DNA from: Candidatus Planktophila lacus
GTDB taxonomy: Bacteria; Pseudomonadota; Gammaproteobacteria; Steroidobacterales; Steroidobacteraceae
Assembly (NCBI GenBank): GCA_943331345.2
Contig: CALQLF020000006.1
Location: 1-64,000 of the forward strand
DNA length: 64,000 nt
Reading direction: 5' to 3'
Positions 1-45,757 of this stretch are shown here, piece by piece. Each line of letters starts with the position of its first letter. The first letter of the stretch is position 1. The position numbers and the translations under genes were made by a program. The notes beneath the pieces are model-generated. The model was not told the origin of the DNA. It was given only the letters and a program-made list of their open reading frames with translations, and ran no database searches.

Positions 1-450
1 CGGTTGTTCTCCACGGCGAACACCATTGGCCTCGGCGATGCCACCGGCCTGTACCACGGCACGCAGCAAATCAATCAAGGCCAGATGGACCGCTGGTCCA
101 TCGTCACCACGTTGAATTATCTGGAACACGAAGCGGAAGCCGCCATCGTCGTCAGCCGCGATGCCACCTACGACACGCCGGAAGGCCGCAAGACTGTCAT
201 GGCCATGGTTCGCGTGGCGGACATGACCCGCAATGCCTTCATGAACGGGGACATCTCCACCGTCATGAGCCCGCGTTCGGTCATCGCCTGGGCAGAAAAC
301 GCCCGCATCTTCGGCGACTTGGGTCTCGCGTTCCGCGTCACGTTCCTGAACAAGTGCGACGAACTGGAACGTGCCACGGTGGCGGAGTTCTACCAAAAGG
401 CCTTCGGGCAAGACCTGCCCGACGCCGTTACCCGCCGGAAGATTGTGTGA
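1..450 (+). CDS. cobS: Cobaltochelatase AAA+ subunit CobS, C-terminal part
   Basis: The gene begins before the window; only the last 149 codons are visible. The residues [10 protein letters not shown] near the window start, followed by [18 protein letters not shown], are characteristic of CobS, the BchI-like AAA+ subunit that works with CobT and CobN to insert cobalt in aerobic cobalamin synthesis. The Walker A and B region lies outside the window, so ATPase integrity cannot be judged. Its TGA stop overlaps the GTG start of the next gene (GTGA), which indicates a translationally coupled cobST pair. CobN is not visible here, so the pair may act with a distant CobN. The family call is strong. 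Confidence 0.9.
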
Positions 451-2312
451 ACGCGACGGCGCCACGCGCCGTGTCGGTGCTGCCGGAGCGCTACGAGCGC
501 GCGCTGGTGCAGTCGACGCGCGCGCTGGCGGGCGACGAACGCGTACAAATTCGCTTTTCGCCGCAAGGGCCGCGGCTGGATGGGCGCACCTTCTTGCTGC
601 CCATCCCCGCAAAGACGCTAGATGAGGCGGAATGGCAGAAGCTGCGCGGCCACGCTGACCGGTTGGCCTTGCGCTATGCGCACCACCAAGCCACCCTACA
701 TTCGCGCTATCGCCCCGCTGGGCTGCGTGCCCGCGAGGTTTACGACGCACTGGAAGATGTGCGCTGTCAGTCCATCGGTTCACAAGTACTAGCCGGCGTG
801 GAAAAAAACCTCGAAGCCGCCTGGCTAGATACGCTGGAACGCAATGGCGTGCTGAAGGGCCAATTCCTGCGTACCACCGGCGTGACGCAAGCTGTGGCAC
901 TGCTGGCGCGCGAAAAGATGACCGGCCGCCCTCCGCCGCCCGAAGCCGCTTCGCTCATGGCGAAGACGCGCGAGTTCATCGGGCCGCGTACGCTGGCTGC
1001 CCTCGGCAAGCTGGGCGATGCCGGCGCCGACCAGGAACGCTACGCTTTCGCCGCCCACGATCTCGTGAAGACGCTCGACTTGGGCTACGAGATTGGCGAA
1101 GACGTGGAAGAGAAGCGCAAGACGCGCGAAGCCCAAATGCAGGCCGTGCCCGGTGCCGGCGGCGAAGCACCGATGGCCGAGGCCTTGCGTGTGAAGGAAG
1201 GCCAAGGCGTCCTCGAAAACGACGACCCTATCGTGGCCGCAAAGCAGCCGCTGGAATCGCTGGATACAGGCGAAGACGAGCCCGTCGGCAAGCCGACCAA
1301 AGACGATGCCAGCGAACGCATGCTCCATCAGGAACTGGTGGATGACAGCGACCACCCGAACCGCAACTACCGCGTGTTCACGCGTGCCCACGACGAAATT
1401 GTCGAGGCACGCACACTGGCCGCAGAAGAAGAACTGGGCGAACTGCGCCTGAAGCTGGACCGCGAGTCGCGCGGATTGCAAAGCGTGGTGGCCAAGTTGG
1501 CCAATCGGCTCGAGCGCATGCTGCTCACCCAGCAACAACGCCATTGGAAATTCGACTTGGATGAAGGCCTGCTGGATCCGGCGCGCTTGTCGCGCATCAT
1601 CACGGACCCGCTGTCGTCGCTGTCGTTCAAGGAAGAACAAGAGTCGGATTTCAAGGACACCGTGGTGACCGTGCTGCTGGACAACAGCGGTTCCATGCGC
1701 GGACGCCCTATTCTGCTCACCGCGCTCTGCGCGGATGTGCTGGCTCGCACACTCGAGCGTTGCGGTGTGAAGGTGGAGATTCTGGGCTTCACTACCAGCG
1801 CTTGGAAGGGCGGCAAGTCTCGCGAGGATTGGTTGAAAGCCGGCGCACGCAGCAACCCAGGCCGACTCGGCGACTTGCGTTACATCATCTACAAAGACGC
1901 CGATGCCCCTTGGCGCCGGTCGCGCCGCGACCTGGCGCTGATGCTGCAGGAAGACTTGCTGAAAGAGAACATCGATGGCGAAGCGCTGCTGTGGGCCCAT
2001 GAGCGCCTGCTGGCGCGCCGCGAACAGCGCCGTGTTTTGATGGTCATCTCCGACGGCGTACCGCTCGACGAAGCGACGCTGTCTGCAAACGCAGGCAGCT
2101 TCCTCGAGCAGCATCTCCGCAACGTGGTGAAGTGGATAGAGACGCGCTCATCTGTAGAGCTGGTGGCAATCGGCATCGGCCATGACGTGACGGACTACTA
2201 TCAGCGTGCAGTAGCCATTGGAGGGCCCGAAGAACTGGGCGCGGCCATGATTGAACAGCTGGCCAGCCTGTTTTTGCCGCGCCAGCGGCACTGGCACGCT
2301 AAAGCGAGTTGA
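447..2312 (+). CDS. cobT: Cobaltochelatase VWA subunit CobT
   Basis: This 621-residue protein has the CobT layout: a helical N-terminal part, an acidic middle segment (roughly residues 230-320) and a C-terminal VWA domain. The MIDAS motif DNSGS begins at about residue 412 and should bind the metal needed for contact with the AAA+ partner CobS. The reading frame is open further upstream, but those codons overlap cobS; the GTG at 447 overlaps the cobS stop and gives the usual CobT length of a little over 600 residues. Role: part of the ATP-dependent cobalt chelatase in aerobic cobalamin synthesis. AAA+/VWA pairs also exist with other roles, but the sequence match to CobT is good. Confidence 0.9.
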
Positions 2313-2376
2313 GCGGACGAGTTCGGCTGGTGACTAAACGGATCGACAAAGCGGGCGTGATGGACAAGGTGAACGG

Positions 2377-3552
2377 ATGACCACTCTTAATCCTGCCCTG
2401 CCGACCACCATGCATGCCGTGTTGCTGAAGGCCCACGGAGGCTACGAACAGCTGGAGGTCCGCGAAGACGTGCCCGTGCCGCAACCGCAGGCCGGTGAGG
2501 TGCTCATTCGCATCGCTGCCGCTGGCGTGAATAACACGGACATCAACACGCGCATTGGTTGGTATGCCAAAGAGGTAGGATCAAGCTTGACGGTAGGAGC
2601 GAGCTTGCTCGCGACTGTCGGCAGCAAGCTGCCTCCCACAGGAGACTCAGCAGCTGCATCAGAACAGGCAACTGTGGGAGCGAGCTTGCTCGCGACTTCT
2701 TCGGAGTCCACTTCCTGGTCTGGCTCGGCTTTTCACTTCCCCCGCATTCAGGGTGCCGATGCCTGCGGGTATATCGTCGCCGTGGGCGCAGGCGTACCGG
2801 CCACGCGCATCGGTGAGCGCGTGTTGGTGGACCCTATCCTGCGCAGTGGCCGCTTCGGCAGCGCAGCAGCGCCGGGGTACTTCGGTGCGGATTGCGATGG
2901 CGGCTTTGCGCAGTACACCGCGGTGCCAGCAGAAAACGCCTGCCATATTGACAGCCCGTTGTCGGATATCGAGCTCGCCTCGTTTCCGTGCTCTTATCTA
3001 GCCGCGGAAACCATGGTGCATCGTGCCGGGGTGCGCGCCGGCGAATGCGTGCTTGTTACAGGGGCCTCTGGTGGCGTGGGCTCGGCGGCGGTGCAACTGG
3101 CACGGCGGCGCGGTGCGGAAGTGATTGCGGTCGCATCCAACAGCAAGGCCGAAGGCTTGCGCGCACTGGGTGCCAGTCAAGTCGTCGACCGCGGCGCTTC
3201 GCTGGTGGCGATGCTTGGGAAAGATGCCGTCGAGGTCGTCATCGATTGCGTAGGTGGTCCGCAGTTCCCGGAATATCTCGAGTTGCTACGTCCACGCGGC
3301 CGCTATGCCGTGGCCGGAGCCATTGGCGGGCCCATCGTGCCGCTAGACCTGCGCACGCTGTATTTGAAAGACCTGCGCTTGCTGGGCTGCACCATCGACG
3401 GGCCCGAAGTGTTTCGGCAACTGGTGGGCTACTTGGAGCGGGCTGAAATTCGCCCGCTCGTCTGTGGCACTTGGCCGTTGCGGGACATCGTGGCTGCGCA
3501 GGAGACATTCCTGCAGAAGACGCACCTCGGGAAGCTGGTGCTGACGATTTAG
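2377..3552 (+). CDS. Zinc-type alcohol dehydrogenase / quinone oxidoreductase with REP-encoded insert
   Basis: This 391-residue medium-chain dehydrogenase/reductase starts at an ATG following AAGGTGAACGG. An N-terminal GroES-like domain (EVLIRIAAAGVNNTDI near residue 41) precedes a Rossmann domain with the nucleotide-binding GASGGVG near residue 228. It should be an NAD(P)H-dependent oxidoreductase of unknown substrate. Between GWYAKEV and WSGSAFHFPR (residues about 72-107) lies a segment encoded by two REP-like palindromes, reading GASLLA twice in frame. That loop is variable in the family, so the protein may still fold. The TAG stop overlaps the stop of the convergent downstream gene. Confidence 0.8.
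   Translation: MTTLNPALPTTMHAVLLKAHGGYEQLEVREDVPVPQPQAGEVLIRIAAAGVNNTDINTRIGWYAKEVGSSLTVGASLLATVGSKLPPTGDSAAASEQATVGASLLATSSESTSWSGSAFHFPRIQGADACGYIVAVGAGVPATRIGERVLVDPILRSGRFGSAAAPGYFGADCDGGFAQYTAVPAENACHIDSPLSDIELASFPCSYLAAETMVHRAGVRAGECVLVTGASGGVGSAAVQLARRRGAEVIAVASNSKAEGLRALGASQVVDRGASLVAMLGKDAVEVVIDCVGGPQFPEYLELLRPRGRYAVAGAIGGPIVPLDLRTLYLKDLRLLGCTIDGPEVFRQLVGYLERAEIRPLVCGTWPLRDIVAAQETFLQKTHLGKLVLTI
2593..2696. repeat. Two REP-like palindromic elements inside a coding region
   Basis: The first unit (2593-2640) is an inverted pair, GTAGGAGCGAGCTTGCTCGC facing GCAGCAAGCTGCCTCCCAC. The second (2673-2696) is a single TGTGGGAGCGAGCTTGCTCG copy. The same element recurs between genes at about 8.74, 29.6 and 56.8 kb and inside another gene at 47.0 kb. 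Both units keep the host reading frame open. Confidence 0.9.
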
Positions 3553-4283
3553 TCCTGCGTCACTACTCGGGTATAAGTCCCGATGCACGTCAGCGGCGTT
3601 TTCGACACGCGGCAGATGGCAATGCGGTCCGGCGTTTCCGGCATCAGATAGAAGAAGGTGGTGTTGTCCGGCTTCAGCGGCGCACGCTGGCCCGCACAGT
3701 CGGGCTTGCCATTGGCGGCAATGGCAGATTTCACGAAGCCCAGTACTTGCTTGGTATTCGCAATGGTCAGCACCGCGTAAGCGCCTTCCATCACTTCTTC
3801 GCCGCTCTGTGAAACATAGCTGCCATCGGCGTGGTAGCTGTAGCGCTCACGGCATTTGCCGTCGCCACTCAAAAACTCCCATTCACCCGCCAGAGGGGCT
3901 GAAGTGGCAGGGGTGGGCGTTCCTTGTGCGCTAGGCAATGCGATGGTGTCCCAAAACACCACACCGGCGTTCGCGCTGAATTGCGCCATGACCGCGCCAC
4001 CGCCCTTGAATCGCAGGGGCCAAAAGCCGTGAGCGTTGAAGGGCACCCCCGCCTTGAACTCGCCCTGCAGCAAGCCGCCGTGCGAGGAGGTGAGAATGCC
4101 CGCCCCCTGCGCCTTGCCTTCCGTGCATTCGCCCTGCCAGCGGAACGTCGCGCCTTCCACAGTATTAGGGGCGGACACCTGGCAAGCCGTACCGGTAGAA
4201 GCGACCCACTCATCCGCGCGGGCAGTCGGAGTAGCGAGCGGCCCGAGCAGCAGCAGGGCACATGGCAGGCGTAGCAGGGACAT
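3549..4283 (-). CDS. Secreted protein of unknown function, MORN-like region
   Basis: This 244-residue protein begins with a signal peptide (hydrophobic LLRLPCALLLLGPLATP, likely cleaved after ARA near residue 23), so it should be periplasmic or exported. The segment around residues 45-85 (GECTEGKAQGAGILTS, LLQGEFKAGVPFNAHGFW) resembles MORN-type G-x-G repeats. The C-terminal half has four cysteines that could form disulphides. A GGAGA ribosome site precedes the ATG. It is convergent with, and shares stop bases with, the upstream dehydrogenase gene. No enzymatic motif was seen and no function is proposed. Confidence 0.7.
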   Translation of the reverse strand: MSLLRLPCALLLLGPLATPTARADEWVASTGTACQVSAPNTVEGATFRWQGECTEGKAQGAGILTSSHGGLLQGEFKAGVPFNAHGFWPLRFKGGGAVMAQFSANAGVVFWDTIALPSAQGTPTPATSAPLAGEWEFLSGDGKCRERYSYHADGSYVSQSGEEVMEGAYAVLTIANTKQVLGFVKSAIAANGKPDCAGQRAPLKPDNTTFFYLMPETPDRIAICRVSKTPLTCIGTYTRVVTQD

Positions 4284-33985: not shown

Positions 33986-35164
33986 TTAGCCCGCCAGCTT
34001 CTCTATCAGCCGCCGGATACGCACACACGCTTCGCGCAGCTGCTCTTTCTCCACCGTCAGCGCCACGCGCACGTGGCCAGCGGCAGCGCCCAGGCCGAAG
34101 CTTTCGCCAGGCATTACCACCACGTTGGCTTCGTCCAGCAGGCGCCAGGCGAACTGTTCACCGTTCAGCCCCGTGGCGCGCACGTCCACCATCAGGAACA
34201 TGCCACCTTCCGGCATACGCACGTTGGTGTGGCGGCAGCCTTCAAAGGCACTCACCACGGCTTCGGCGCGTCCGCGCAGGCTGGCGCGGAAAGCTTCCAC
34301 TTCCGGGTGGTGGCCCGTGAGTGCTTCCGCGAGCGCGTCTTCCAGAAACGGCTGCGAGCCAAACAATATGGCCTCAGCCACGGACAGCAGCCGGGGCATG
34401 GCCGTTTCGGGCGCCGCCACCCAGCCCGCACGGAAGCCTGGCAGCAGATGCGATTTCGAGATGGACGAAACGGCCAGCGTGCGTTCGCGCAGCTGGGGCC
34501 GGTCGAAGGGCGAACAGAAGCGGCCACTGAAGGTGAGGTCCGCATAGACCTCGTCCGACAGGATCCAAAGGTCGTGGCGTTCGCACACGGCGCCGATGGC
34601 ATCTACTTCTGCTTCGGAAAGCACGGCACCCGTCGGGTTGCTCGGTGTATTCAGTAGCAGCACGCGGGTGCGTGGCGTAATGGCCGCTTCCAAGGCTTCG
34701 GGTGTCAGATGGAACCCAGCCTCAGGCGACGTCTGCACGGGTACGAAAGTGGCACCGCTGGCAGCGACGAGCCCTTCATATGTCGCGTAGTAGGGGTCCG
34801 GGACAATCACCTCGTCGCCGCTCTCCACCACCGTCATGAGGCTGGTATAGAGGCCGTTCTGGGTACCGGCGCAGTACAGCACTTGCTCTGGCGAAACAGC
34901 CATGCCGGAACGTTCCGCCAAATGGCGCGCTACGGCCTCGCGGGCCCCCGGCTCGCCTTGCGGACTGGCGTAGCGCGTACGGCCTGCATACATGGACTGC
35001 ACAACACGGTCCAGCACGCGTGCCGGGGGCGGCAAGTCCGGCTCACCGATGGACAACATGATGACGGGCTGCCCGGCACGGGAGCGTTTCTGACCTTCGA
35101 AGTGGACTTCCCATTTGGCGGCGCCAAGGCCAGCCAAGCGGTCGGAGAGGGAAGCAAAGCGCAT
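33986..35164 (-). CDS. Class I/II PLP aminotransferase, arginine:pyruvate transaminase-like
   Basis: This 392-residue fold-type I aminotransferase has the PLP lysine K237 in SSISKSHLLPGFRAGW, N176 (NTPSNPTG), D204 and Y207 (SDEVY). Its overall pattern (GAAKWEVH near the start, GGMFLMVDVRATGL near the end) is close to AruH, which transfers the arginine amino group to pyruvate. Other aspartate-type aminotransferases share these motifs, so the substrate is tentative. Next to it on the same strand is a short unknown gene. Confidence 0.75.
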   Translation of the reverse strand: MRFASLSDRLAGLGAAKWEVHFEGQKRSRAGQPVIMLSIGEPDLPPPARVLDRVVQSMYAGRTRYASPQGEPGAREAVARHLAERSGMAVSPEQVLYCAGTQNGLYTSLMTVVESGDEVIVPDPYYATYEGLVAASGATFVPVQTSPEAGFHLTPEALEAAITPRTRVLLLNTPSNPTGAVLSEAEVDAIGAVCERHDLWILSDEVYADLTFSGRFCSPFDRPQLRERTLAVSSISKSHLLPGFRAGWVAAPETAMPRLLSVAEAILFGSQPFLEDALAEALTGHHPEVEAFRASLRGRAEAVVSAFEGCRHTNVRMPEGGMFLMVDVRATGLNGEQFAWRLLDEANVVVMPGESFGLGAAAGHVRVALTVEKEQLREACVRIRRLIEKLAG

Positions 35165-35197
35165 GGGGTTCAGCCTTGGGGCAGGAAAGCGCGCAGT

Positions 35198-35998
35198 TTA
35201 CCGAATAGCGGGCAGCGGCATCGTTTCATCCCATTCGGCATAGGCCAGAAAACTGCGCGCTAAGCCGGCTTCTTCTAGATAACCGCCTAGCCCGTTGCTT
35301 AGGTGCAGGGCGTGCTGCTTGCCGTAAACCACCGCGCGAACATTGGGAATGGGGACTACTTCTTCCCGTGATTTGCCGTATTTACGACGCAGCTCCGTAT
35401 AGCGGGGCCAACGCCAGTCCACCTCTGCTCGCCAGTGCAGGTGCAGGCGCTTGCCGGAACTGTCGACGCGCGCGCGGTAGCCGAGGCGCCCCCAGTACAG
35501 GCCGAAGAAGCTGTCGGGGTCGGAGCTGCTGGCCATGTAGAACTGGGGCGTCCATTGGTAGCCGTCTCCGCCCACTTTCGCGCCGCGGGTAAGCGCCGCA
35601 CGCTTGCGGGCCTGTTGGCGAAGCTTGCCGGTTTGCTTAAGCACTACCCGCGAACCGAGAAACAAACGCGCATTGACCTCCAGCGCTTGCCCGCTGGCCG
35701 CCAAGTAATGCTGCATCAAGCGACCCGACTGCCGAATGGGCGGCAAGTGCCGAGCACCCGTGGCCATGGCGGAGTAGAGGTCCACCAAATAGCGCTGGTC
35801 CTCTTGCGATACCGGTTTGCCGCGCAAGATTTGCCGCTCGATGGCATTGGTCCGTGCTTGCACCGCCTCCACGCCACGGCCGGTACCAAGCGTCCACGCC
35901 ATGCCGAGCTGCTGACCGGGGAATTGCCAACGGATATAACCGGCCGCGCCCAGAAGGCAGACGACGACTAACCAGAGAACGAACTTGCCGCGAAACAT
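35198..35998 (-). CDS. Conserved-looking protein of unknown function
   Basis: This 266-residue protein has an N-terminal membrane anchor or signal (FVLWLVVVCLLGAAGYI) and no recognised domain. It has a positively charged middle (KLRQQARKRAALTRG) and an aromatic-rich C-terminal half (FFGLYWGRLGYRARV, HWRAEVDWRWPRY). It should sit in or beyond the inner membrane. It is followed at 33 nt by the aminotransferase gene on the same strand, possibly co-transcribed. No function is proposed. Confidence 0.6.
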   Translation of the reverse strand: MFRGKFVLWLVVVCLLGAAGYIRWQFPGQQLGMAWTLGTGRGVEAVQARTNAIERQILRGKPVSQEDQRYLVDLYSAMATGARHLPPIRQSGRLMQHYLAASGQALEVNARLFLGSRVVLKQTGKLRQQARKRAALTRGAKVGGDGYQWTPQFYMASSSDPDSFFGLYWGRLGYRARVDSSGKRLHLHWRAEVDWRWPRYTELRRKYGKSREEVVPIPNVRAVVYGKQHALHLSNGLGGYLEEAGLARSFLAYAEWDETMPLPAIR

Positions 35999-36012
35999 GG
36001 AGTACTGGCTAC

Positions 36013-36588
36013 CTAGGTGTTACGCAAGAAACGCTTTGCGACCCAGCAGCTCTCGGTGGGAGCGCTCGCTGCAGTTTCGCGGCTGATGTGTACCCAGCCG
36101 TTCTGCTCATTGAGGCGCTGCACCTTGGTGTCGCGCAAGAGCCGCCGAACAACGCGTGCCTGACCATTGGGCGCCGCGCGGCACTTCAGCGCCTTGGCGG
36201 TGACTGTAGCCGTTGGCAGTACGAGCACCGCAGACGCCGCCCTCTCCGTTGGCAACGGCGTGCTGAAGCCGGCATCCGCAGGCCCGCCAATGAGCCGCGC
36301 CAACCCCAAGACGCCAAACACGATGACCACCAAAGTGCCGCAACCGATGGAGCTACCCGCGGCCGGCGTTGTCGCGTTAGTGGCACTCGGTTCCGCGCCT
36401 TGGTTACGCGTCAGCATCTCGCTGTAGGAAATGCCCGTACCGGGAATGCCGACGGTAGTGCGTATGCCGCGCTTGCCGAAGTTCATGGTGAAGCCGCGGC
36501 CACCCACGCTGGCGCTTACCCCACGCGTGCTGAAATTCAGGCGAATGCCTGGCAACAAGCGAACCGAACGGCGAAAACGGAAACCCAT
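36013..36588 (-). CDS. DUF4236 protein with C-terminal SH3-like domain
   Basis: This 191-residue protein begins with the DUF4236 signature (MGFRFRRSVRLLPGIRLNFS ... RGIRTTVGIPGTG). A single membrane helix (IGCGTLVVIVFGVLGLARLI) lies near the middle, and the C-terminal 70 residues resemble a bacterial SH3 domain (ALKCRAAPNGQARVVRRL ... GWVHISRE). The layout suggests a membrane-tethered cell-wall-facing module, but no role is established. The ATG at 36588 begins the domain exactly; an upstream extension is possible but unlikely. Confidence 0.7.
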   Translation of the reverse strand: MGFRFRRSVRLLPGIRLNFSTRGVSASVGGRGFTMNFGKRGIRTTVGIPGTGISYSEMLTRNQGAEPSATNATTPAAGSSIGCGTLVVIVFGVLGLARLIGGPADAGFSTPLPTERAASAVLVLPTATVTAKALKCRAAPNGQARVVRRLLRDTKVQRLNEQNGWVHISRETAASAPTESCWVAKRFLRNT

Positions 36589-36716
36589 GGCGCATGGTAA
36601 GCGTAATACCCAGCACGGGAAAAGTGCGGTGCCCGCGTGCGTTGCCTTGCCGTCATGAGAAACTACTTGAACAGCCGCCACGCTGGGCAATGCAACGCGC
36701 CTTGGAGTACACGCCG

Positions 36717-37016
36717 ATGATTCTGGAAATGGCCCGCATTCAAATCGACCCTGCCCGCAAGAGCGAATTTCTGGCGGCTGTCGCCCAAGCCGCACCCTTG
36801 TTTCAGGCTGCGGCGGGCTGCCGTTCCATGCGCATCGCTCCCGTGGTGGAACATGCTGCGCAATTCATGTTGCTTGTGGAATGGGAAACGCTGGCAGACC
36901 ATATGGAAGGCTTCCGCAACTCTGCGGCCTTCCAGCAATGGCGTGCGCTGGCAGGCCCGTTCTTTGTGGCACCGCCGGTAGTGGAACACGCAGAAACCGG
37001 GCCCAGCTTTTTCTAA
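36717..37016 (+). CDS. Antibiotic biosynthesis monooxygenase-family protein
   Basis: This 99-residue ferredoxin-like protein has the ABM pattern: MILEMARIQIDPARKSEFLA, then FMLLVEWETLADHMEGFRNS and the terminal GPFFVAPPVVEH. Members are small dimeric monooxygenases or heme-degrading or quinone-oxidising proteins. No cofactor residues can be singled out. It lies 32 nt before the first retron-region gene on the same strand; co-transcription is possible but it does not belong to the retron on present evidence. Confidence 0.75.
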   Translation: MILEMARIQIDPARKSEFLAAVAQAAPLFQAAAGCRSMRIAPVVEHAAQFMLLVEWETLADHMEGFRNSAAFQQWRALAGPFFVAPPVVEHAETGPSFF

Positions 37017-37048
37017 GGCTCACGCCTTGAGCCACCGCCCCTCGCAAC

Positions 37049-38095
37049 ATGAGGGGCATGACCACCATCATTCGCACGAAAGCCGAAGAAGACGATCCTT
37101 ATCCGCGCGCCGAGCGCCCGTCGGACATCCCCGTATCGGTAGCCATGGCTTATGCCGCCTGGGGCTACGCCATGCTAAACGGGGACCCGCTGCTAGCGGA
37201 CCAACTGGAAAGATTGCTGCTGGCGGCTGGTGCCCTGGGGTCTGCGGCCAACCACATCGACGCCGCAATCGCCACGGCTGGCGAAACCAGCTTTCCCTTC
37301 GAGCGCAGCCCCCTGGACATTGCCGTGGCCAAACTAGTGGCCTCGGCTTCCGTAGCGCAAGAATTCCGTCTCTATAGTCTGCGCAGCGTGGATATCGCTG
37401 GCTACCTGCTGAATAGAGGCGGGCGCGCGGAATACATCGGCAGCAAGCGCCAGCATCAGGTGCGGCATGCGCGCTGCACCGAAATATTGCCGCCGCGCAC
37501 CGCGGCTTCAGCGGGCGTAGCGCTAACGCGCGGCAGCCCTTGGGACTACTTCCTGCAAACGGATTTCAGCTCGTCCACGCAACTACGTTATTCATTGGGT
37601 GCTGCTTGTGCTCGCTACAAGCCTTTCGATCACCCCATGCTCCACACCACGCAACTCACGTTTTTCGGTGAGGGTGCCACGCCCGCACGGATAGACCGTT
37701 CTGTATCGGTAAAGCTCGTGCCTGCCGTCAAGGGCGTCTACGGCATGGTCTGCCTGCACGAAGCCGACTTGCTCCGCCTGCATGCTGGCCTTGCGGAAGC
37801 TAGTTGGGTCCATTTGAGCACCACGGGCTATTCCTTGCTGGCGCGCGTGCCGAACCTCGAGATTGATGAAAACCGCCAACAAGCGCGCTTCAATCCTCGC
37901 CGGTCGCTCCGGGAACTCACCGGTCTTGGCGATTGTTACTTCGTGAATTTACCCCGGCTACTGGCTCTGGAGCTGGTCTGGCGCCATCGCTGGTTTGCGC
38001 CGGCGCGAGTGGAGCACTGGCTGGCCCTCACCCAAGAAGCCGGTGAACGCGTTGCAGAAGAAGTGGCAGAACAAGAGGGGTGGCTCATGCCTTGA
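37049..38095 (+). CDS. Retron-region protein A, unknown family
   Basis: This 348-residue protein matches no family I recognise. It lies just before the retron RNA and RT gene. Its C-terminal third resembles that of the gene after the RT (41446-42486): LHAGLAEASWVHLSTTGYSLLAR (split here as LHAGLAEASWVHL and LLARVP) aligns with MHACSMQEAWVHL and CRVP, and WRHRWFAP aligns with QRYWWFAA. The two are therefore likely divergent paralogues. The N-terminus has a helical region (VAMAYAAWGYAMLNGDPLLA). It may be an adaptor or target-recognition part of the system; this is inference. An in-frame ATG at 37058 is a possible alternative start. Confidence 0.7.
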   Translation: MRGMTTIIRTKAEEDDPYPRAERPSDIPVSVAMAYAAWGYAMLNGDPLLADQLERLLLAAGALGSAANHIDAAIATAGETSFPFERSPLDIAVAKLVASASVAQEFRLYSLRSVDIAGYLLNRGGRAEYIGSKRQHQVRHARCTEILPPRTAASAGVALTRGSPWDYFLQTDFSSSTQLRYSLGAACARYKPFDHPMLHTTQLTFFGEGATPARIDRSVSVKLVPAVKGVYGMVCLHEADLLRLHAGLAEASWVHLSTTGYSLLARVPNLEIDENRQQARFNPRRSLRELTGLGDCYFVNLPRLLALELVWRHRWFAPARVEHWLALTQEAGERVAEEVAEQEGWLMP

Positions 38096-38130
38096 GCCTC
38101 TAGCCTTTCATACTCACAGCCTATGGTTTG

Positions 38131-38330
38131 CAGCCCCCCTTTCCCTTTCAGACTCACCTGGTGTTTCGCCAGGAATGCGCAAGCCTGCCCTGTTCCGGCG
38201 CTAGCCGAGCAGTCCGTCACGAAGGGGTCGGTGCTGCCCCGCAAGTTGCGGGACGCAACGACCCCTTCGTGCCGTACCGCCCGTCTTTCACCGGAGAGCT
38301 CGTTGTTGAAGTGAAGGGAAAGGGGGGATC
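38131..38330 (+). ncRNA. Candidate retron msr-msd RNA
   Basis: The ends are complementary: a1 CCCCCCTTTCCCTT (38134-38147) and a2 AAGGGAAAGGGGGG (38314-38327), 14 bp perfect, extendable by one G-U pair. Next to a1 is a msr-type stem with a UUU loop, CCTGGTG-TTT-CGCCAGG (38157-38173). The msd part has a perfect 13-bp stem, CACGAAGGGGTCG (38218-38230) with CGACCCCTTCGTG (38259-38271), capped by CCCGC-AAGTT-GCGGG. The RT gene starts 8 nt after a2. This is the expected order a1-msr-msd-a2-RT. The branching guanosine is not certain; G38151 or a close neighbour is a candidate. Confidence 0.85.
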
Positions 38331-38335
38331 TGCTT

Positions 38336-41300
38336 ATGGTTATCCAGTCGCCTCATAGGGAGCTTCCGAAAATCTCGGAAGTTGAAGCAGCCCTGCTGGC
38401 TGCCGTCAATTCGCTGCCAGTGCCTCGCGCTGCCGAGCGCCTGTTCAATTTGGCGAGCCGCCCCGCAAGCGAAACCAGCCCGGAGGCTTGCGGCGAAGAA
38501 GTGCTCGGAGAACTGCTGGTCCAACACGACCCGTACGAACCAGGTTTTGCTGAAAGGCTGGACCAAGCCTTGCCGTTTGGCAGCCCGGCGGCAGTGGGCG
38601 GTTTGCTGCAGTTGTTTCCTCAGCACTCGCCAGTGGTCGCGTTGCGGCAAGTGTGGGCGGTCGCCGCCGCGCGTCCGGTCATGGCCGCGTTCTTGGCACG
38701 TGGCGTGCTGTCTACGCCAGTGGCGGCGGCCTTCCCGCATCTCGTTCCCGAAATGCGCCGCTTGGTTGGGCTGGCGCTCGAAGTGGGCCCTCGGCGGTAC
38801 CACGGCACCACAGAGTTGGGCTCGGGTCCGCTTCGCGATTCGTATTTGGCAAAGGCCTTGGTGGAATGCCTCGAAGACGAGTTCCGTATTCCTTCGCTAG
38901 GTGGTTGGAACGAAGCCAAGCCAGGCCTTCGGCTGCGGTTCCAGTGGGCCGCCATGGCGCACCGGTCCAAAGACGCAAAAGAACTGCTTGAAGCGGCAAC
39001 TAACATCATCGGTGTGACTGTTTACTTGATGGAGCGCGAACTATCGCGCGCAGCCAAGGCATGGAGCAATGCAGGCCAGCCGCTGCGGCAGTTGCCGGCT
39101 TTACAAAGCGTCTATCTGCCAATGCGTGTTCAACGCTGGCTACAAGAATCGCAAACCCTTCGCGAACTGGTGCTCAAGGGCGCTCCCACGCCGTATTTGC
39201 GTTGGTCTCGCAAGCAACAAGCAGCACGCTTTGGCACCGAACGTTTGGTGGAGCAAGCCAAAGTGGCCCTGCAGTGCGCAGACTTTCGCCGCGCCGGCCA
39301 AATTCTCCTTTCCATGGTGGGCGGCCCCCTAGCAGACAAGGTGCTGCGGGAAAAACTCACATGTCCACCGCGTATGAACGTGCCGGCCACGCCGCCAGTG
39401 GCGCCATCCGCCGCTCGCGCCTACCAACGCTGGTCCCCCATGGCGCCGGAAGCCGCGGCGCTCTGGCAGAAACGGGTACCGAACGTGCGGCTGCCGGCAT
39501 GGTGGTCGTGCAGCGTGGATGAAGTGGTCGCAGGGCTAGCCGCGAACCAGTGGTCCTGGAGCGCTTTTTCGTCGATGGAAAAAGCGCGTCTGCAGGCCAG
39601 CTGGAAACCTGCGCATGAGCAATTGCTGGTATCAGCAAATGTGTTCGCTGCAGTTCCACTTAGCTCGAAGGTCTGGCGGTCTGCCGGGGCCAGCGCCGTG
39701 TTCGGCCTAGCTCGGTCCTCCAATGCCGCGTTTGCGCCCCTGTTGCGCAAGGTGCTGCTGGGCATGGAAGATGCGCGGCCGCTGTTGGCGCATGTTGCCC
39801 AAAGCACGGACCCACAGAGCCTACGGGCTGAATTCGCAGAACTCATGGCTGTCTTGCAGCCAGCGGCCAAGGAGGGCCGCGAACAGTTGTCGTGGTTCCG
39901 CTGGGAAGCGCCGCTTATTGGTACGCCGGAATGGCACCAAGCACCAGAATGGATGCGTGAAGCCAAACGCTTTTTGGCGGGCATGCCCGGTTACTTGCGG
40001 CGCGGCGGCAAGCCGCTGCACCTGCCAGGCTTCGTTGCCGTCTTCGAAGAGGAAATAGTGGCCAGTGCATGGCCTGCACCGGCAATAGCGCAAGTACTGT
40101 TGCAATGGACAAAAGTGCAGCCGCAATCAGCACGTCAACTGTTGGGGCGGTTGCCAGTGCCAGTGCTCACGGCTCTCCTTCAGCACCGTCGGCTTCCCGC
40201 CGGTTTGGCAGAAGTGGCTGCGCAGTATCTCAACGCAGCCGGCCTGCCGGTTTCCGAAGCCCAGCTGGATGCTTTTCGTCTGCGTACCCCGGAAACATTG
40301 GACCACGTGGCAGTGGCCTTGTGGCGGCAGCCTCTTCTGAAAGACAAAGCTCACCGCTGGCGCCACAGCTGGAACCTGTTGCCCGGGCAAGATTCGCTGC
40401 GTGACGATTGCCGCATGCTGCTGGCCAGGCGGCAGGCGCGTACGGTGGTGGCGCTGGCGAAAGAACTGGGCGCGGAACGTTTTCAGGCCGCGGCACTACG
40501 CGTAGCGCATCAGTTGGTACCCTTCAGCCGCGGGGAAGCGGCTTTGCTTGAAATCAGCGCACCCCTTCTCCCGGAAGAATTGGGAGCGCTATGGGTAGCG
40601 CTGGCATGGTGCCGGCGAGTAGCGGGTCCCGGGCACCTGCTCGACCACACCTACCGTCGCTACACACTGCCCAAACCCTCTGGCGGCACCCGGGTCATTC
40701 ACGCGCCGGCCTGGCCCGTGAAAGTAGCGCAGCGTGCGGTGTTGCGGGCTTATCTCGCGCCGCTAGGCGCCCATGCTTCCGCGTGCGGGTTCGTGGCCGG
40801 TCGCAGCATCTGCGACAACGCGGTACCGCACGTCGGTCAACGCGTGGTGGCGAACGCCGACGTGCGGCAGTGTTTTCCGAGCGTTAGTTGGCAACGTGTC
40901 CTGGGGGTGCTCCGTCGAGACCTGCAGCCCGCGCTTTCATCAACGGCTATCGGCCTGCTCCTAGATCTAGTAACCGCCGAAGGCGCCTTGCCCATCGGTG
41001 CGCCAACGAGCCCGGCGCTGTTGAACCGCGTTCTGTTGCGGTCCGACGAAATCCTTACCGAGTTGGCCGCTAGCCATGGTGTTCAATACACGCGCTATGC
41101 GGACGACCTAACCTTCTCCGGCGATGGCGCCGCCGTGAAAATGCTGGGCCACGCCAAGCGTGTGCTGGGGCAAGTGGGGCTGGAGTTGGACCCCAAGAAG
41201 ACGAATATCTTCCGCCGTGGCCGCCGCCAAACGGTTACCGGCTTGACCGTGAACGACCGCGTATCGGTGCCGCGCAAATTACGCCGCGAACTGCGTGCTG

Positions 41301-41449
41301 CTGTTCACGCCATTGAAAATGGCCGCGATGCTCACTGGCATGGTCTGCCGCAATCGCTAGCCAGCATGCGTGGCCGTTTGGCGTTCCTCGCCATGGCGCA
41401 CCCTGCAGAAGCACAAGCCCTCAGGGAAAAACTGGAGGCCGCGAAATGA
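38336..41449 (+). CDS. Retron-type reverse transcriptase with large helical N-terminal extension
   Basis: This 1037-residue protein ends in an RT domain (about 773-1037). It has the retron motif NAxxH as NAVPH (828-832), the palm FPSV segment, LPIGAPTSPALLN, the catalytic YADD (921-924) and the retron VTG (967-969). Both catalytic aspartates are present. Retron RTs are usually about 300-400 residues, so the N-terminal 770 residues are exceptional; they look like an all-helical repeat (ARM/HEAT-like) array with no motif I can name. The ATG at 38336 follows the G-rich a2 arm, which may double as ribosome site. Its stop overlaps the next ATG. It should make msDNA from the RNA just upstream. Confidence 0.9.
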   Translation: MVIQSPHRELPKISEVEAALLAAVNSLPVPRAAERLFNLASRPASETSPEACGEEVLGELLVQHDPYEPGFAERLDQALPFGSPAAVGGLLQLFPQHSPVVALRQVWAVAAARPVMAAFLARGVLSTPVAAAFPHLVPEMRRLVGLALEVGPRRYHGTTELGSGPLRDSYLAKALVECLEDEFRIPSLGGWNEAKPGLRLRFQWAAMAHRSKDAKELLEAATNIIGVTVYLMERELSRAAKAWSNAGQPLRQLPALQSVYLPMRVQRWLQESQTLRELVLKGAPTPYLRWSRKQQAARFGTERLVEQAKVALQCADFRRAGQILLSMVGGPLADKVLREKLTCPPRMNVPATPPVAPSAARAYQRWSPMAPEAAALWQKRVPNVRLPAWWSCSVDEVVAGLAANQWSWSAFSSMEKARLQASWKPAHEQLLVSANVFAAVPLSSKVWRSAGASAVFGLARSSNAAFAPLLRKVLLGMEDARPLLAHVAQSTDPQSLRAEFAELMAVLQPAAKEGREQLSWFRWEAPLIGTPEWHQAPEWMREAKRFLAGMPGYLRRGGKPLHLPGFVAVFEEEIVASAWPAPAIAQVLLQWTKVQPQSARQLLGRLPVPVLTALLQHRRLPAGLAEVAAQYLNAAGLPVSEAQLDAFRLRTPETLDHVAVALWRQPLLKDKAHRWRHSWNLLPGQDSLRDDCRMLLARRQARTVVALAKELGAERFQAAALRVAHQLVPFSRGEAALLEISAPLLPEELGALWVALAWCRRVAGPGHLLDHTYRRYTLPKPSGGTRVIHAPAWPVKVAQRAVLRAYLAPLGAHASACGFVAGRSICDNAVPHVGQRVVANADVRQCFPSVSWQRVLGVLRRDLQPALSSTAIGLLLDLVTAEGALPIGAPTSPALLNRVLLRSDEILTELAASHGVQYTRYADDLTFSGDGAAVKMLGHAKRVLGQVGLELDPKKTNIFRRGRRQTVTGLTVNDRVSVPRKLRRELRAAVHAIENGRDAHWHGLPQSLASMRGRLAFLAMAHPAEAQALREKLEAAK

Positions 41450-42486
41450 GTGCCTGGCGACACTACGCGCAGAAACAACGCCAAGCCATGGTGCAGGTGC
41501 CATTGGCGGCTACGTACTTGGCGGTTCGTCTCCTCCAGGAAGAGCCTGAAGCCGAACCTTTGTTGGCCGACTTGCTCAAGTATCTACGTACCGCTCTTGG
41601 TTCGTGCTCGTCGGGTGGACACTCCGTCGTTCATGCCGTCTTGGCTGCGCGTCGTGCTGCCATCCCGCTGGACCGCAACGACCTCGACTGCTTGTTCGCC
41701 GCGGGGGCACTGGCCGACGGAACTGTCAAAAATCGGTCGTTTCGTTGTCAGGAGCAGCTACTCGGCTTGGGCTACTTCGATCTCGAGCGCGCCACGTATG
41801 TCGCTACGCTGGCAGACCGCGACTATCGATATACAACACCAGCGCACGAATTCCTTCGCCCAGGCGGCTTCGAACAATTGCGGCCGCTGCTGGCAGGGAC
41901 TCAAAAGCCGAAGTGTGGTCTTGTTACGCATGAAGGCTCGCCGTCTTTGTTGGCATTGGACTTCAGCGCGGAATGGCTGGAAGCCACGCGCCAGAGCCTT
42001 GAACAAGCCATCACGTCAGCCGATGGCCTCAAGGTGGAATGTCGTCTCTATGTTCGTAGTGCCGCTACCCGCGCTGAAAAAAAATTCAAGTCCCACTCCA
42101 CGGTAACGCTCTCTCTGCAGCCACTGAACGCCGGGCTTTTCGCGCTAACGCAGGCAACCCCAGAATGGCTCATGGGAATGCATGCCTGTTCCATGCAAGA
42201 AGCGTGGGTACATCTGGATTGTTCCGTGTTCCGCATGGTTTGCCGTGTGCCAGACATCTCGGCGCCGGTAGCGCTTGTTCCGGCGCATGGTTTTTCGCCG
42301 CACCAGTGGTTCCTGCAGTGCCTCGGTATACCGGAAACCTGCTGCGCTTACATCCCCCACAAATGGATAGAGCCGCTAACGCAACGCTATTGGTGGTTCG
42401 CCGCCACCGAACCAATCATCTGGTTGGTAAACACCGGTGCACTCAAATCTGAACTGAAAACTGCTGAGGGAATGCTGCGCTCATGA
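41446..42486 (+). CDS. Retron-region protein B, paralogue of protein A
   Basis: This 346-residue protein overlaps the RT gene (ATGA) and the MoxR gene (ATGA), so it is locked into the operon. No known family is recognised. C-terminal segments (MHACSMQEAWVHLDC, CRVPDI, YIPHKWIEPLTQRYWWFAA) align with the protein encoded before the RNA, and the N-terminal 100 residues (VPLAATYLAVRLLQEEPEAE) could match the helical N-terminus there. Two related but strongly diverged subunits suggest a heteromeric adaptor. Function is not known. Confidence 0.75.
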   Translation: MSAWRHYAQKQRQAMVQVPLAATYLAVRLLQEEPEAEPLLADLLKYLRTALGSCSSGGHSVVHAVLAARRAAIPLDRNDLDCLFAAGALADGTVKNRSFRCQEQLLGLGYFDLERATYVATLADRDYRYTTPAHEFLRPGGFEQLRPLLAGTQKPKCGLVTHEGSPSLLALDFSAEWLEATRQSLEQAITSADGLKVECRLYVRSAATRAEKKFKSHSTVTLSLQPLNAGLFALTQATPEWLMGMHACSMQEAWVHLDCSVFRMVCRVPDISAPVALVPAHGFSPHQWFLQCLGIPETCCAYIPHKWIEPLTQRYWWFAATEPIIWLVNTGALKSELKTAEGMLRS

Positions 42487-43469
42487 AACCGTCCCGTCTC
42501 GACACGGTCCTCGAATCTTTGCTCGACCAGCGTTGGCCATCGTTCATTTGGGGCCCGCCCGGCGTTGGCAAGAGCTCGTTGGTGCATTCCATTGCCCGGC
42601 GTCGTTCGCTGCCCGTCGTGGACCTGCGTGCGTCCCTGCTGGACCCCACCGACCTGCGCGGCATCCCGGCCATTCAGGATGGGCAGGCCGTATGGTGCCC
42701 GCCGGCGTTCCTGCCGCGCGCGGGCCGCCCGCCCGGCATTCTGTTTCTCGATGAAATCAACGCGGCGCCGCCGATGGTGCAAGCCAGCTTGTACCAACTG
42801 GTGCTCGATCGCCGCGTCGGCGAATACGAACTCCCCGATGGCTGGTGGATTGTTGCCGCCGGCAATCGCGCGCAGGACCGTGCTGTGACGTTCCGCATGT
42901 CCAGTGCGCTGGCGAACCGCTTCGTGCACTTGCAGTTCGAAACCGATATCGACGACTGGCGGGCGTGGGCGCTTGCTCACAGCATCACTCCGTTGGTGGT
43001 CGGGTTCCTCGGCGTGCGTCCGGCGCTGCTGCAAGAAGAGCCCGGCGACAGCGCTGCGTTCGCCACGCCGCGTTCTTGGGAAATGGTCTCGGACGTGGTG
43101 AAGCGCTTCGGTAGTGTGGCGCAATGTCGGGACGTGTTGCCCGGCATCATCGGTGAAGGCGCTGCCGTGGAATTCGTGAAGTTCGCCAAGCAAGCGCTGC
43201 ATGAAGACCAATTGCGCGCCATCGTAGCGGACCCGGAGGGCGCCGTCATACCAAAGGCCCTCGACGAAATCTACGTCATTACTTCCTGGTTCGCGTACCA
43301 CGGCAAAGACCCCGCAGTCGCCAAGGCGGCCGCCCAGTTGCTCGGACGTTTGCCGCCGGAGTTTGCCGTAGTGATGGCGCGCGACATGCTGAAGGCCAGC
43401 CCGGCTTTCGTTCGTGAACTGGGTTACAAAGCCTTCTTGAAGAGCCATGGCCAACTCCTTCTCGGCTGA
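42483..43469 (+). CDS. MoxR-family AAA+ ATPase of the retron operon
   Basis: This 328-residue AAA+ ATPase has Walker A GPPGVGKSS (24-32, K30), Walker B GILFLDEIN (D90, E91), sensor 1 in VAAGNRAQDR and an arginine finger candidate in SSALANRFVHL. MoxR-type ATPases work with VWA proteins to remodel or activate targets, and a VWA protein is encoded directly after, overlapping by 23 nt. Here the pair probably forms the effector or regulator of the retron system. That role is inferred from gene order only. Confidence 0.88.
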   Translation: MKPSRLDTVLESLLDQRWPSFIWGPPGVGKSSLVHSIARRRSLPVVDLRASLLDPTDLRGIPAIQDGQAVWCPPAFLPRAGRPPGILFLDEINAAPPMVQASLYQLVLDRRVGEYELPDGWWIVAAGNRAQDRAVTFRMSSALANRFVHLQFETDIDDWRAWALAHSITPLVVGFLGVRPALLQEEPGDSAAFATPRSWEMVSDVVKRFGSVAQCRDVLPGIIGEGAAVEFVKFAKQALHEDQLRAIVADPEGAVIPKALDEIYVITSWFAYHGKDPAVAKAAAQLLGRLPPEFAVVMARDMLKASPAFVRELGYKAFLKSHGQLLLG

Positions 43470-44661
43470 AGCGGTGGCGCTGCAGGTGCAGCGCGCCCGC
43501 ATTCGGCTTGCTCTCTCCAAGCCGTTTCTCGCATCGGCCGTGCTGCGGCTGCCGTTGGTGCCTGTTCTGGGCTCCAGATGGTGCCCGACCGCAGCCACGG
43601 ATGGTTACCACCTCTTCTACAACCCAAAATGGGTAAGCGGGCTTTCCTCTTACGAAACCCGTGGCTTGCTGGCGCATGAAGTGATGCATGTGGTGTTTGG
43701 CCATGGCGAACGTCGGCAGAACCGGCCGCCGCGGCGCTGGAACATTGCCTGCGACCACGCTATTAACCTGATGCTGCTGGAGCAGGGCTTCCGCTTGCCC
43801 GCGGATGGCATGGCAGATGCCAGCTATGCTGGACTGACAGCCGAGCAAATCTACGAACAGTTGCCGGAAGACGACGACGCAAGCAGCCGCCGTAGCCCGC
43901 ACGGGGGAGATGTCGACTGTGAATCGGGGTTGGTTCCGGAAATCGGCGTCGATTTGGTTAGCCCCGACCATCCTTCTGTGCGCCCGTTACGTACGGCAGA
44001 TGCACCCGATATTGAGCGTATGCGGGAAATCCGCGCGGAGTTGGCCGCCGAAATTGGCACGAAACTTCAAGGGTCCGCGGCCGGGGCGTTCCAGCGCGAG
44101 CTTGGCGCCCTGCAACAGTCCCGTATCGACTGGCGCGCCCTGCTGCGCGTGTGGCTGACCGATAGGCTGAAGTCCGATTGGTCCAGCTTTCCCTTCAGCA
44201 AGAAGCATCTACACCGCGGCTTGTTCCTGCCTTCGCTCGGCGTGGAAGCCCCGCGCGAAGTGGTGTTCGCCATCGACACCTCGGGCTCCATGGATGACCA
44301 AACATTGGCCAAGTTACTCGGCGAACTACGGGCGTTTCGCGAAGCGTTTCCGTGCCGCGTCACCTTGCTCCAGGCGGACGCCGCCATCCAGGAAGTGCGG
44401 GTATTCGAAGCCATGGACGGCGTAGAAGTACCGCAACGCATGGCCATGAAAGGTCGCGGCGGCACGGATTTCCGCCCGGTGTTCCAATGGCTGGCGCGGG
44501 AAGCGCCTGACGCGGTGCTGCTTTACGCCACGGACGGCTTCGGTGCCTTCCCCAAGAGCGCCCCGCCATCGCCAGTGCTATGGCTGTTAACCACACCGCA
44601 TGTCGATGCCACGAAAATCCCTTTCGGTGCCTGCGTGGAAATTCCGGCATCTATTTCGTAG
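43447..44661 (+). CDS. DUF2201-type metallopeptidase-like protein with VWA domain
   Basis: This 404-residue protein joins an N-terminal zinc metallopeptidase-like domain and a C-terminal VWA-like domain, the DUF2201 layout. The zinc motif HEVMHVVFGH (H77, E78, H81, H86) is intact with the third histidine. The VWA MIDAS DTSGS begins at D277, and the later GRGGTDFRP is the usual second MIDAS loop. It should partner with the MoxR ATPase. If the protease is active, its activation by msDNA or phage sensing would be an attractive effector mechanism; this is speculation. Confidence 0.85.
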   Translation: MANSFSAEAVALQVQRARIRLALSKPFLASAVLRLPLVPVLGSRWCPTAATDGYHLFYNPKWVSGLSSYETRGLLAHEVMHVVFGHGERRQNRPPRRWNIACDHAINLMLLEQGFRLPADGMADASYAGLTAEQIYEQLPEDDDASSRRSPHGGDVDCESGLVPEIGVDLVSPDHPSVRPLRTADAPDIERMREIRAELAAEIGTKLQGSAAGAFQRELGALQQSRIDWRALLRVWLTDRLKSDWSSFPFSKKHLHRGLFLPSLGVEAPREVVFAIDTSGSMDDQTLAKLLGELRAFREAFPCRVTLLQADAAIQEVRVFEAMDGVEVPQRMAMKGRGGTDFRPVFQWLAREAPDAVLLYATDGFGAFPKSAPPSPVLWLLTTPHVDATKIPFGACVEIPASIS

Positions 44662-44778
44662 CTGCCTTGCATGCTAAGACGGTACTCCACGTCGTGGCTG
44701 CCGGGTAAGGGCTGCTAAAGTAGGTCTGCCCTGTTGCGAGCGGCAGCGGTTCGTTAACCGGCAGATGCCGGATATTTC

Positions 44779-44820
44779 ATGAGGCTGAATCCATGAGACT
44801 GGTTCAATGAGACTGGCAAC
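44779..44820 (+). repeat. Three 14-bp tandem repeats carrying ATG codons
   Basis: Units start at 44779 (ATGAGGCTGAATCC), 44793 (ATGAGACTGGTTCA) and 44807 (ATGAGACTGGCAAC). Each begins with ATG, in three different frames. Only the third is in frame with the following enzyme. Confidence 0.7.
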
Positions 44821-45757
44821 GGTTCGTTCTTCAGGCCGTGACGGCAAATTGGTCAAAGTGTCGCAAGACGGCAAGACCTATGCCGATGCCAGCGCCATCG
44901 CTGCCACGCTGCAGGACGCTATCGAGCGCTGGGACGTGGTTGCGCCACAGCTGGCCGCCCTGCCGGAAGGAACGCGGGACCTGCGTGAAGCCGAGTTGCT
45001 CGCACCGTTGCCGCGGGCCTGGCAATGGTTGGACGGCTCTGCTTTTGCTAGCCATGGCGACCTCATGAATAGCCTGTTAGGCATCAAAGTGGAACGCACC
45101 GGGGTTCCGCTCATGTACCAAGGCATGTCCGACACCTTCCTTGCGCCCACAGCAGATGCTCACTTCCCCAATGAAGATCTGAATATCGACTTCGAGGGCG
45201 AGTATGGCGTAGTGGTCGATGCGGTTCCCATGGGCATCAGCGCCGCCGAAGCGCTCGGACACATCAAGTTATTGGTGCAAATTAATGACTGGTCACTGCG
45301 CAAGCTAGCGCTGCCGGAAATGAAGACGGGCTTTGGCTGGGTAGGCGCGAAGCCTGCTTGCAGCATGGCGCCCTATGCTGTAACGCCGGATGAGCTAGGA
45401 GAACAGTGGCGCAACGGGCGAATCTGTCTGGACCTCGAGGTATCGTGGAACGGCGCACGCTTCGGCAACGCTAACGGTGAGCCGATGGAATTCGGCTTTC
45501 ACGAACTAGTAGCGCATGCAGCGCGCACGCGCCAGCTCGTCGCCGGAACCGTCATTGGCTCCGGTACTGTGTCCAACACGAATTTTCGCGAGATTGGCTC
45601 TTCTTGCATCGCCGAGCGCCGCGGCATCGAGCTGATGGACGAAGGCAAGGAGCGCACAGGCTTCATGCGCTTCGGTGACCGGGTAAGAATGGAAGCGCAT
45701 ACGGCCAACGGCGCAGCGCCGTTCGGCGCCATAGACCAGCGCGTCGTTCAGGCTTAG
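44807..45757 (+). CDS. Fumarylacetoacetate hydrolase-family protein
   Basis: This 316-residue enzyme has the FAH fold: LMYQGMSDTFLAP, the metal-binding DFEGEYGVVV (the acidic residues of the FEGE motif), QINDWSLRKL and GTVIGSGTVSN. Members hydrolyse or decarboxylate beta-diketo acids using Mg2+ in tyrosine and aromatic breakdown. No other tyrosine genes are nearby, so the substrate is open. The ATG at 44807 is the third of three tandem ATGs but the only one in frame. It begins 145 nt after the retron operon and may be outside it. Confidence 0.85.
   Translation: MRLATVRSSGRDGKLVKVSQDGKTYADASAIAATLQDAIERWDVVAPQLAALPEGTRDLREAELLAPLPRAWQWLDGSAFASHGDLMNSLLGIKVERTGVPLMYQGMSDTFLAPTADAHFPNEDLNIDFEGEYGVVVDAVPMGISAAEALGHIKLLVQINDWSLRKLALPEMKTGFGWVGAKPACSMAPYAVTPDELGEQWRNGRICLDLEVSWNGARFGNANGEPMEFGFHELVAHAARTRQLVAGTVIGSGTVSNTNFREIGSSCIAERRGIELMDEGKERTGFMRFGDRVRMEAHTANGAAPFGAIDQRVVQA

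Follow-up and report, generated by a model that had tools for sequence, protein, structure and literature searches.

An earlier note on the stretch of DNA analysed here (64,000 nt, hereafter the window) had read a set of inverted repeats in front of a long reverse transcriptase (RT) gene as the msr-msd RNA of a retron. The locus raises two questions: whether this interval is indeed a retron RNA, and what the genes around it contribute. Retrons are bacterial reverse-transcriptase systems that usually serve in anti-phage defence. In their RNAs the a1 stem closes inwards on a priming guanosine, set in TAGC or one of its known variants; there is also an msr part with one to three hairpins of about 7-10 bp and loops of 3-10 nt, and an msd part with one long hairpin of about 10-50 bp. 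We give a probability of roughly 0.85 to the joint reading that positions 38130-38333 are a retron msr-msd RNA in an operon with partner genes (Table 1). Taken by itself, the first part of this reading, that the interval is a retron RNA, is close to certain. The RNA is an ordinary, well-supported retron RNA, and the operon is the more notable finding.

Table 1. Features of the retron RNA and its operon, in window coordinates
Feature	Position	Strand	Remarks
orfA, 348 aa	37049..38095	+	No family assigned; distant paralogue of orfC
a1 arm	38130..38150	+	Core 38134-38148, inner CA 38149-38150, outer GCAG 38130-38133
Predicted priming (branch) guanosine in CAGA	38151	+	Putative position; AG invariant in the eight-row alignment
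msr hairpin CCUGGUG-UUU-CGCCAGG	38157..38173	+	7 pairs, one G-U; putative RT recognition
msd hairpin	38218..38271	+	13 perfect pairs enclosing an inner hairpin; counterpart stem covaries in relatives
AGUGA segment, inner end of a2	38310..38314	+	A, G and T invariant in eight rows; putative start of the msd template
a2 arm, purine-rich	38312..38333	+	38312-38327, outer CUGC 38330-38333
Retron RT, 1037 aa	38336..41449	+	PADLOC RT_XIII, E 5.6e-73; Pfam RVT_1
orfC, 346 aa	41446..42486	+	Gene at the equivalent operon place in relatives
MoxR-type AAA+ ATPase	42483..43469	+	Pfam AAA_5, E 9.4e-12
VWA protein with N-terminal putative metallopeptidase (DUF2201_N + DUF2201)	43447..44661	+	Pfam E 5.8e-37 and 5e-24

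Architecture and covariation of the RNA

The pairing elements on which the earlier note built its reading are all present. The 14-bp arms are CCCCCCTTTCCCTT from 38134 and AAGGGAAAGGGGGG from 38314, each occurring once on the + strand of the window. Between them lie the UUU-loop stem, a 7-bp stem that supplies the msr feature of a retron, and the long msd hairpin, a perfect 13-bp stem in which CACGAAGGGGTCG (38218-38230) pairs with CGACCCCTTCGTG (38259-38271) around an inner hairpin. According to the available portion of PMC6868368, the ends of retron msr-msd RNAs are complementary over about 8-30 nt; here the complementarity extends over 14 bp exactly, or 16 bp with one bulge, and it covaries. 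Past that one bulged U, the a1/a2 helix can be extended to CA/UG (38149-38150 with 38312-38313), adjoining G38151, an extension that the alignment of relatives suggests, and the outer GCAG and CUGC segments are paired in the predicted fold. The CAGA at 38149-38152 is the context given for the priming guanosine of retron Eco2 in the same portion of PMC6868368; the relatives have CAGG or TAGG, which are not among the contexts named there.

Several measures set this fold apart from its surroundings. Among perfect 13-bp stems whose loop measures 3 to 40 nt, this is the sole example in the whole window, and the 215-nt region has a fold energy of -108.5 kcal/mol compared with -79.9 (sd 4.7) for shuffled versions (z -6.07), none of 200 shuffles being as good. 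Because exact 14-nt arm pairs at similar spacing were found at three places in the window (eight overlapping matches), the 14-nt repeat taken alone is not convincing evidence. When the a1/a2 geometry was moved across the window at intervals of 50, 2 of 1270 places scored at least as high as the real one, a count that may include overlap with the real site. The recurrence of such arms would favour reading the pattern as repeats paired by chance or as an intergenic terminator. That reading has a negligible probability: the same RNA plan is found in ten relatives, with compensatory changes, and no terminator-like site was detected in 38096-38335. A search for sigma-70-like promoters found none in 36700-44900. 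No Rfam family reached its gathering score anywhere in the window. With E allowed up to 10, the interval 38050-38400 gave six weak matches, all far under that threshold, and the best of these, to BTH_s19 on the minus strand (E 0.0026, 20.7 bits versus 153), was given no weight.

Covariance analysis across homologous loci, where a lack of compensatory changes would have counted against the earlier note, uncovered such changes in the a1/a2 arms, the msr hairpin and the msd stem, and the RNA fold is under selection. This covariation, together with the neighbouring retron-type RT, supports the proposal that the interval is a retron RNA. An RNA of the same plan accompanies ten relatives of the RT. 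It is complete in eight loci (the window, L002, L006, L007, L008, L114, L115 and L123) and truncated at the 5' side by the contig end in three (L003, L111 and L124, where L124 denotes the complete contig of L004; L001 is the window's own locus). With contigs that break off within the RT gene, L009, L010 and L117 fall outside the RNA comparison.

In the eight-row alignment, whose row ends were trimmed to arms previously chosen for pairing and whose two near-duplicate pairs reduce it to about six independent samples, 91.2% of the cells of the a1/a2 helix and msr hairpin are paired, both sides change in 13 of 22 pairs (25 cells), and the covariation score is 0.417. None of 500 shuffles came as high on any of these, while 20 of 500 equalled the number of further pair types, the weakest of the five measures. 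With the partner shifted by 1-3 columns, pairing fell to 45-57%. RNAalifold, given the eight rows, itself picked the a1/a2 helix and the msr hairpin, plus weaker helices, with an overall covariation term that is slightly unfavourable (+1.14 kcal/mol). The msd stem was aligned in six rows (L124, L114, L115, L111, L003 and L006), four of them near-identical and together worth about three independent samples; it is 90.9% paired, changes on both sides in 11 of 22 pairs, and was equalled by 0 of 500 shuffles on all five measures.

Pairing six a1 arms with six a2 arms in all combinations gave own-partner scores of 37.5, 32, 16, 32.5, 40 and 34, with 25 for the best wrong pair; the failing score of 16 belongs to L007, where bulges break the arms. 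This cross-pairing took the place of a duplex-energy test with mononucleotide shuffles, which discriminated poorly (shuffles as good, out of 500: window 20, L002 16, L006 50, L007 420, L008 2, L114 5, L115 4, L123 1, and 0 to 120 for type XIII loci). When only the msd region was tested for its longest helix, the result was strong for the window, L008 and L123 (0 of 200 shuffles as good) and for L114 (4 of 200), and weak for L006 (35 of 200) and L007 (25 of 200). A covariance model of the family matched L124, which lay outside its training set, with E 1.6e-15; L003 (E 5.4e-32) and L111 (E 1.9e-35) were likewise untrained but are close to the rows L114 and L115. Invariant columns occur in runs chiefly at the AG that follows a1, within the triloop hairpin core and at the AGU that precedes a2. 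Between the window and L002 the RNA differs at 3 of 196 positions (98.5% identical), and the operon genes are 77.5-88.2% identical.

A motif scan directly upstream of the RT found no RNA in L004 or L005. On the full contig of L004 (L124), the covariance model places the RNA at 1-150 and the RT begins at 4266, a separation of 4.1 kb; on L005 it gave no match within 3.7 kb upstream. The stretch of L124 between RNA and RT (150-4266) holds what by eye looks like an island of toxin-antitoxin-like genes (GNAT with DUF1778-like, HipA-like, PIN with VapB-like and ParD-like). A retron operon broken up by intervening genes, with a HipA kinase, is described in the available part of PMC12548924. Other departures from the common plan were also seen. 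L008 seems to have two tandem retron RNAs (3541-3733 and 3845-4026) upstream of a single RT, with a second GGUG-UUU-CGCC hairpin at 3566 that has its own arms, AAGAGGTGG and CCACCTCTT, and an AAGUGA segment. The L003 RNA carries an additional 27 nt before a2, and L003 and L111 come from one genome bin, whose two copies of the system resemble each other and may be strain variants.

The a2 arm overlaps the purine tract before the RT start, as had been pointed out, and only 8 nt separate its end at 38327 from the start codon at 38336. The further suggestion, that pairing with a1 hides the ribosome site, held in three of the four loci tried: when a1 was masked, the predicted openness of positions -20 to -5 rose from 0.13 to 0.39 in the window, from 0.22 to 0.31 in L006 and from 0.18 to 0.34 in L114. 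In L008 it did not hold, openness dropping from 0.17 to 0.10. These predictions hint that RNA folding may be coupled to RT translation. They would also suit a cis-acting leader RNA that controls RT translation only, without msDNA. We regard such a leader as very improbable, since a simple leader would not need the msd and msr hairpins, which also covary, the L008 site stays closed without a1, and the RNA of L124 lies kilobases away from its RT.

A retron RT related to type XIII

The enzyme encoded downstream is a retron RT. It consists of an all-helical N-terminal region (about residues 1-757) and an RT domain (about 770-1035) with the motifs NAxxH (828-832), YADD (921-924) and VTG (967-969). 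In a ten-row RT alignment that includes the window, NAxxH, YADD, T968 and G969 are invariant and V967 is nearly so. An AlphaFold model (mean pLDDT 79.1, pTM 0.44) is almost wholly helical to about residue 757. The best Foldseek match of the RT domain is retron Eco2 (Ec67), which is not known to have a MoxR or VWA partner, and in a second structural search the first 14 of 50 entries were all retron RTs (Z 21.1-16.8). Of 16 validated retron RTs, 14 have NAxxH (region X) and 14 have VTG (region Y) according to PMC6868368, and the CAGA priming context is common to Eco2 and the window. Eco2 is an RT-Toprim fusion, as stated in the accessible text of PMC12405507, whereas the window RT is fused to a helical region.

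PADLOC ranks RT_XIII first, and all of the best 25 of 53 matches are RT models. This prompts the question of whether the locus is a canonical type XIII retron, which consists of an RT, a WGR/HEAT-ARM protein and a SWIM protein (WGR_XIII, HEAT-ARM_XIII, SWIM_XIII and RT_XIII in PADLOC-DB 2.0). The match to RT_XIII, the nearest RT model, covers only profile positions 144-422, or 279 of 469. Type XIII models found no match among the other four operon proteins of the window, and HHalign detected no profile similarity between the helical RT N-terminus and five WGR proteins. Searched by tblastn, WGR and SWIM queries found nothing in L001-L010, L111, L114 and L115, all of the family except L123; among these, L003, L009, L010 and L111 have hardly any sequence on the upstream side of the RT, the expected place of such genes. 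The same queries matched 27 other stretches, including the query's source and some overlapping fetches. In one of the type XIII-like loci, L013, three genes match WGR_XIII, SWIM_XIII and RT_XIII strongly.

The RNA also speaks for a connection. Counting only scans of the right strand, 8 of 12 loci resembling type XIII have a GGYG-NNN-CGCC msr core ahead of the RT (found in L011, L012, L014, L015, L021, L093, L102 and L107; absent from L013, L017, L025 and L095), a count that excludes L094 and L096, for which the wrong strand was scanned. This shared hairpin core suggests common descent of the RNAs. Run on the type XIII loci, the covariance model of the family gave no strong match, the best being L011 at E 0.023.

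The tree of RTs agrees with both kinship and separation. The family comprises fourteen RTs (the window, L002-L010, L111, L114, L115 and L123), which form one clade with an SH-aLRT of 96 in a 91-row tree. They part from the 19 RTs with a SWIM partner (SH-aLRT 97), both sets lie inside one larger RT group (SH-aLRT 95), and 58 rows belong to neither set. The tree was built by a quick method with SH-aLRT support only, and it excluded overlapping fetches of one place, the partial L117, matches spanning <216 query residues, and L039, which duplicates L101. The contig scan behind it had kept the best 80 of 82 RT relatives, and more were added from genome searches. Because the WGR and SWIM partners were not found in the loci searched, the msr core is shared and the type XIII RNAs were not found strongly, we conclude that the window system is a sister variant of type XIII, not a member, and that assigning it to canonical type XIII is improbable. 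It differs from type XIII in the fusion of the RT to a long helical region, in its partners (MoxR, the VWA-metallopeptidase and orfC) and in its own clade. The only mention of type XIII found in the literature concerns a strain of Variovorax to which PADLOC assigned one (PMC11953036), and the main text of myRT (PMC8934634), as far as available, contains no VWA, SWIM or WGR.

The RT family is uncommon in the genomes searched. In the window's order it was found in 1 of 196 genomes at E 1e-40, the window's own, and in the family of L006's genome in 3 of 399 at 1e-60, L006's genome included; the genera of three members yielded 4 of 15, 3 of 21 and 1 of 32, members included.

The partner genes

The operon is conserved among the relatives. 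MoxR lies on one side or the other of the RT in all 13 loci whose contig extends there, although in L003 and L111 only its first 31 residues are present, and the VWA gene is found in all 11 loci whose contig reaches it, in L006 as a short end piece. The contig of L005 stops within the RT, and L007 has a different gene order, with MoxR-VWA upstream of the RT. An orfC-like gene was recognised by sequence match in the window, L002, L003, L004, L006, L010, L111, L114, L115 and L117, and by position only or at low identity in L007, L008, L009 and L123 (12-14% identity to the window copy in L007, L008 and L009). The partner genes very likely belong to the retron system.

The motif residues of the MoxR-VWA pair are retained. 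The Walker residues of MoxR are invariant in 10 of 10 rows, HExxH and DxSxS of the VWA protein are invariant in 9 of 9, and the MoxR AAA+ gene adjoins a VWA gene with a MIDAS-type DxSxS, the arrangement of a MoxR-VWA pair. Against PADLOC, MoxR gave two short, weak IetA matches only (E 9e-4 and 1e-3). The two genes on either side of the RNA and RT, orfA and orfC, are 24% identical (blastp, E 8e-12), and at E 0.01 neither matched a family in Pfam, PADLOC or NCBIfam. No confident fold match was obtained for orfC by Foldseek (best E 8.6e-3, low probability) or a second search (best Z 3.6). Among the relatives, orfA has a clear match only in L002; L003, L009, L010 and L111 reach little or nothing upstream of the RT. 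A DNA methyltransferase accompanies the RT in L003, L007, L008, L010, L111, L114, L115 and L117 (tblastn) and, by reading of its motif, in L123, with Pfam N6_N4_Mtase in L008 and L010; none was seen in the RT-MoxR interval of the window, L002, L004, L006 or L009.

The VWA protein has relatives well beyond this operon. Cupriavidus, Burkholderia and Paraburkholderia plasmids carry genes of the same VWA (DUF2201) family in 66 records, at 33-37% identity in the 15 listed. In one plasmid region the VWA gene adjoins one for an annotated ATP-binding protein, and, in contrast to the window, the two regions examined have no annotated RT. Since the relatives in these two regions stand without an annotated RT, the VWA-metallopeptidase is a general module that extends beyond retron operons. 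In 339 Burkholderiales-type genomes there were 13 with VWA matches, mostly of lower similarity, and identities of 54-60% occurred only in the three with the retron RT.

The locus was also compared with L002 (a record named Janthinobacterium lividum) over 34700-44806. The left-flank gene at 34700-35164 is 98.9% identical and the next gene 85.6%, after which similarity is poor up to 37048, and it falls again directly after the VWA gene. The operon looks exchanged or fast evolving. Because the left flanks match so closely, L002 and the window genome may be near relatives.

Proposed mechanism and significance

The sequence makes it very probable that the locus produces msDNA. In the mechanism that we propose, the RT would recognise the triloop hairpin of the msr. 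Priming would take place on the 2'-OH of G38151, where the a1/a2 helix ends, and the msd hairpin would be copied from about 38311 leftwards to a stop near 38215, yielding a branched RNA-DNA whose DNA part is roughly 95 nt long. On the model of other retrons, the complex of msDNA and RT would keep the partner module (orfC, MoxR and the VWA-metallopeptidase) silent. A phage that damaged or modified the msDNA would then free the module, whereupon MoxR could remodel the VWA protein and its protease could stop the cell. Defence by this protease route, which draws on analogy, is a tentative proposal with somewhat less than even odds.

A different division of labour, compatible with the retron reading, is that MoxR and the VWA protein are chaperones for maturation of the RT complex, the toxin being orfC or the helical N-terminus of the RT. 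NorQ-NorD, a MoxR-VWA pair, is required for cofactor insertion into another enzyme (PMC9976466, in the part available), and orfC is a protein without assigned family that has a paralogue in the window. A pure adaptor, however, would not need the HExxH that is invariant across the VWA proteins, and we consider the chaperone role unlikely, if still a serious candidate.

The pairing of MoxR with a VWA protein recalls the MoxR-vWA conflict systems of PMC7159879, whose available text proposes the couple as a thresholding device in counter-invader systems. In those systems the RT is a diversity-generating RT, and retrons are mentioned once in that text, as relatives. No link between a retron and MoxR, VWA or a metallopeptidase was found among the literature matches listed, which does not imply absence from print.

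Returning to a module of effectors under retron control, we suggest, at a strength short of an even chance, that the locus may represent a retron type outside PADLOC-DB 2.0, in which an RT with a helical scaffold makes msDNA that gates a MoxR motor and a VWA-zinc-metallopeptidase. The part that effectors play in other retrons would here fall to a proteolytic AAA+ executioner, and the methyltransferase encoded in the operon of several members could mark msDNA or host DNA. In this operon a MoxR-VWA-metallopeptidase module is joined to a retron. Should the partner genes prove to be the effector, protease-based arrest of infected cells would be a further mode of action of retrons, and the DUF2201-type VWA genes of plasmids would gain a testable function.
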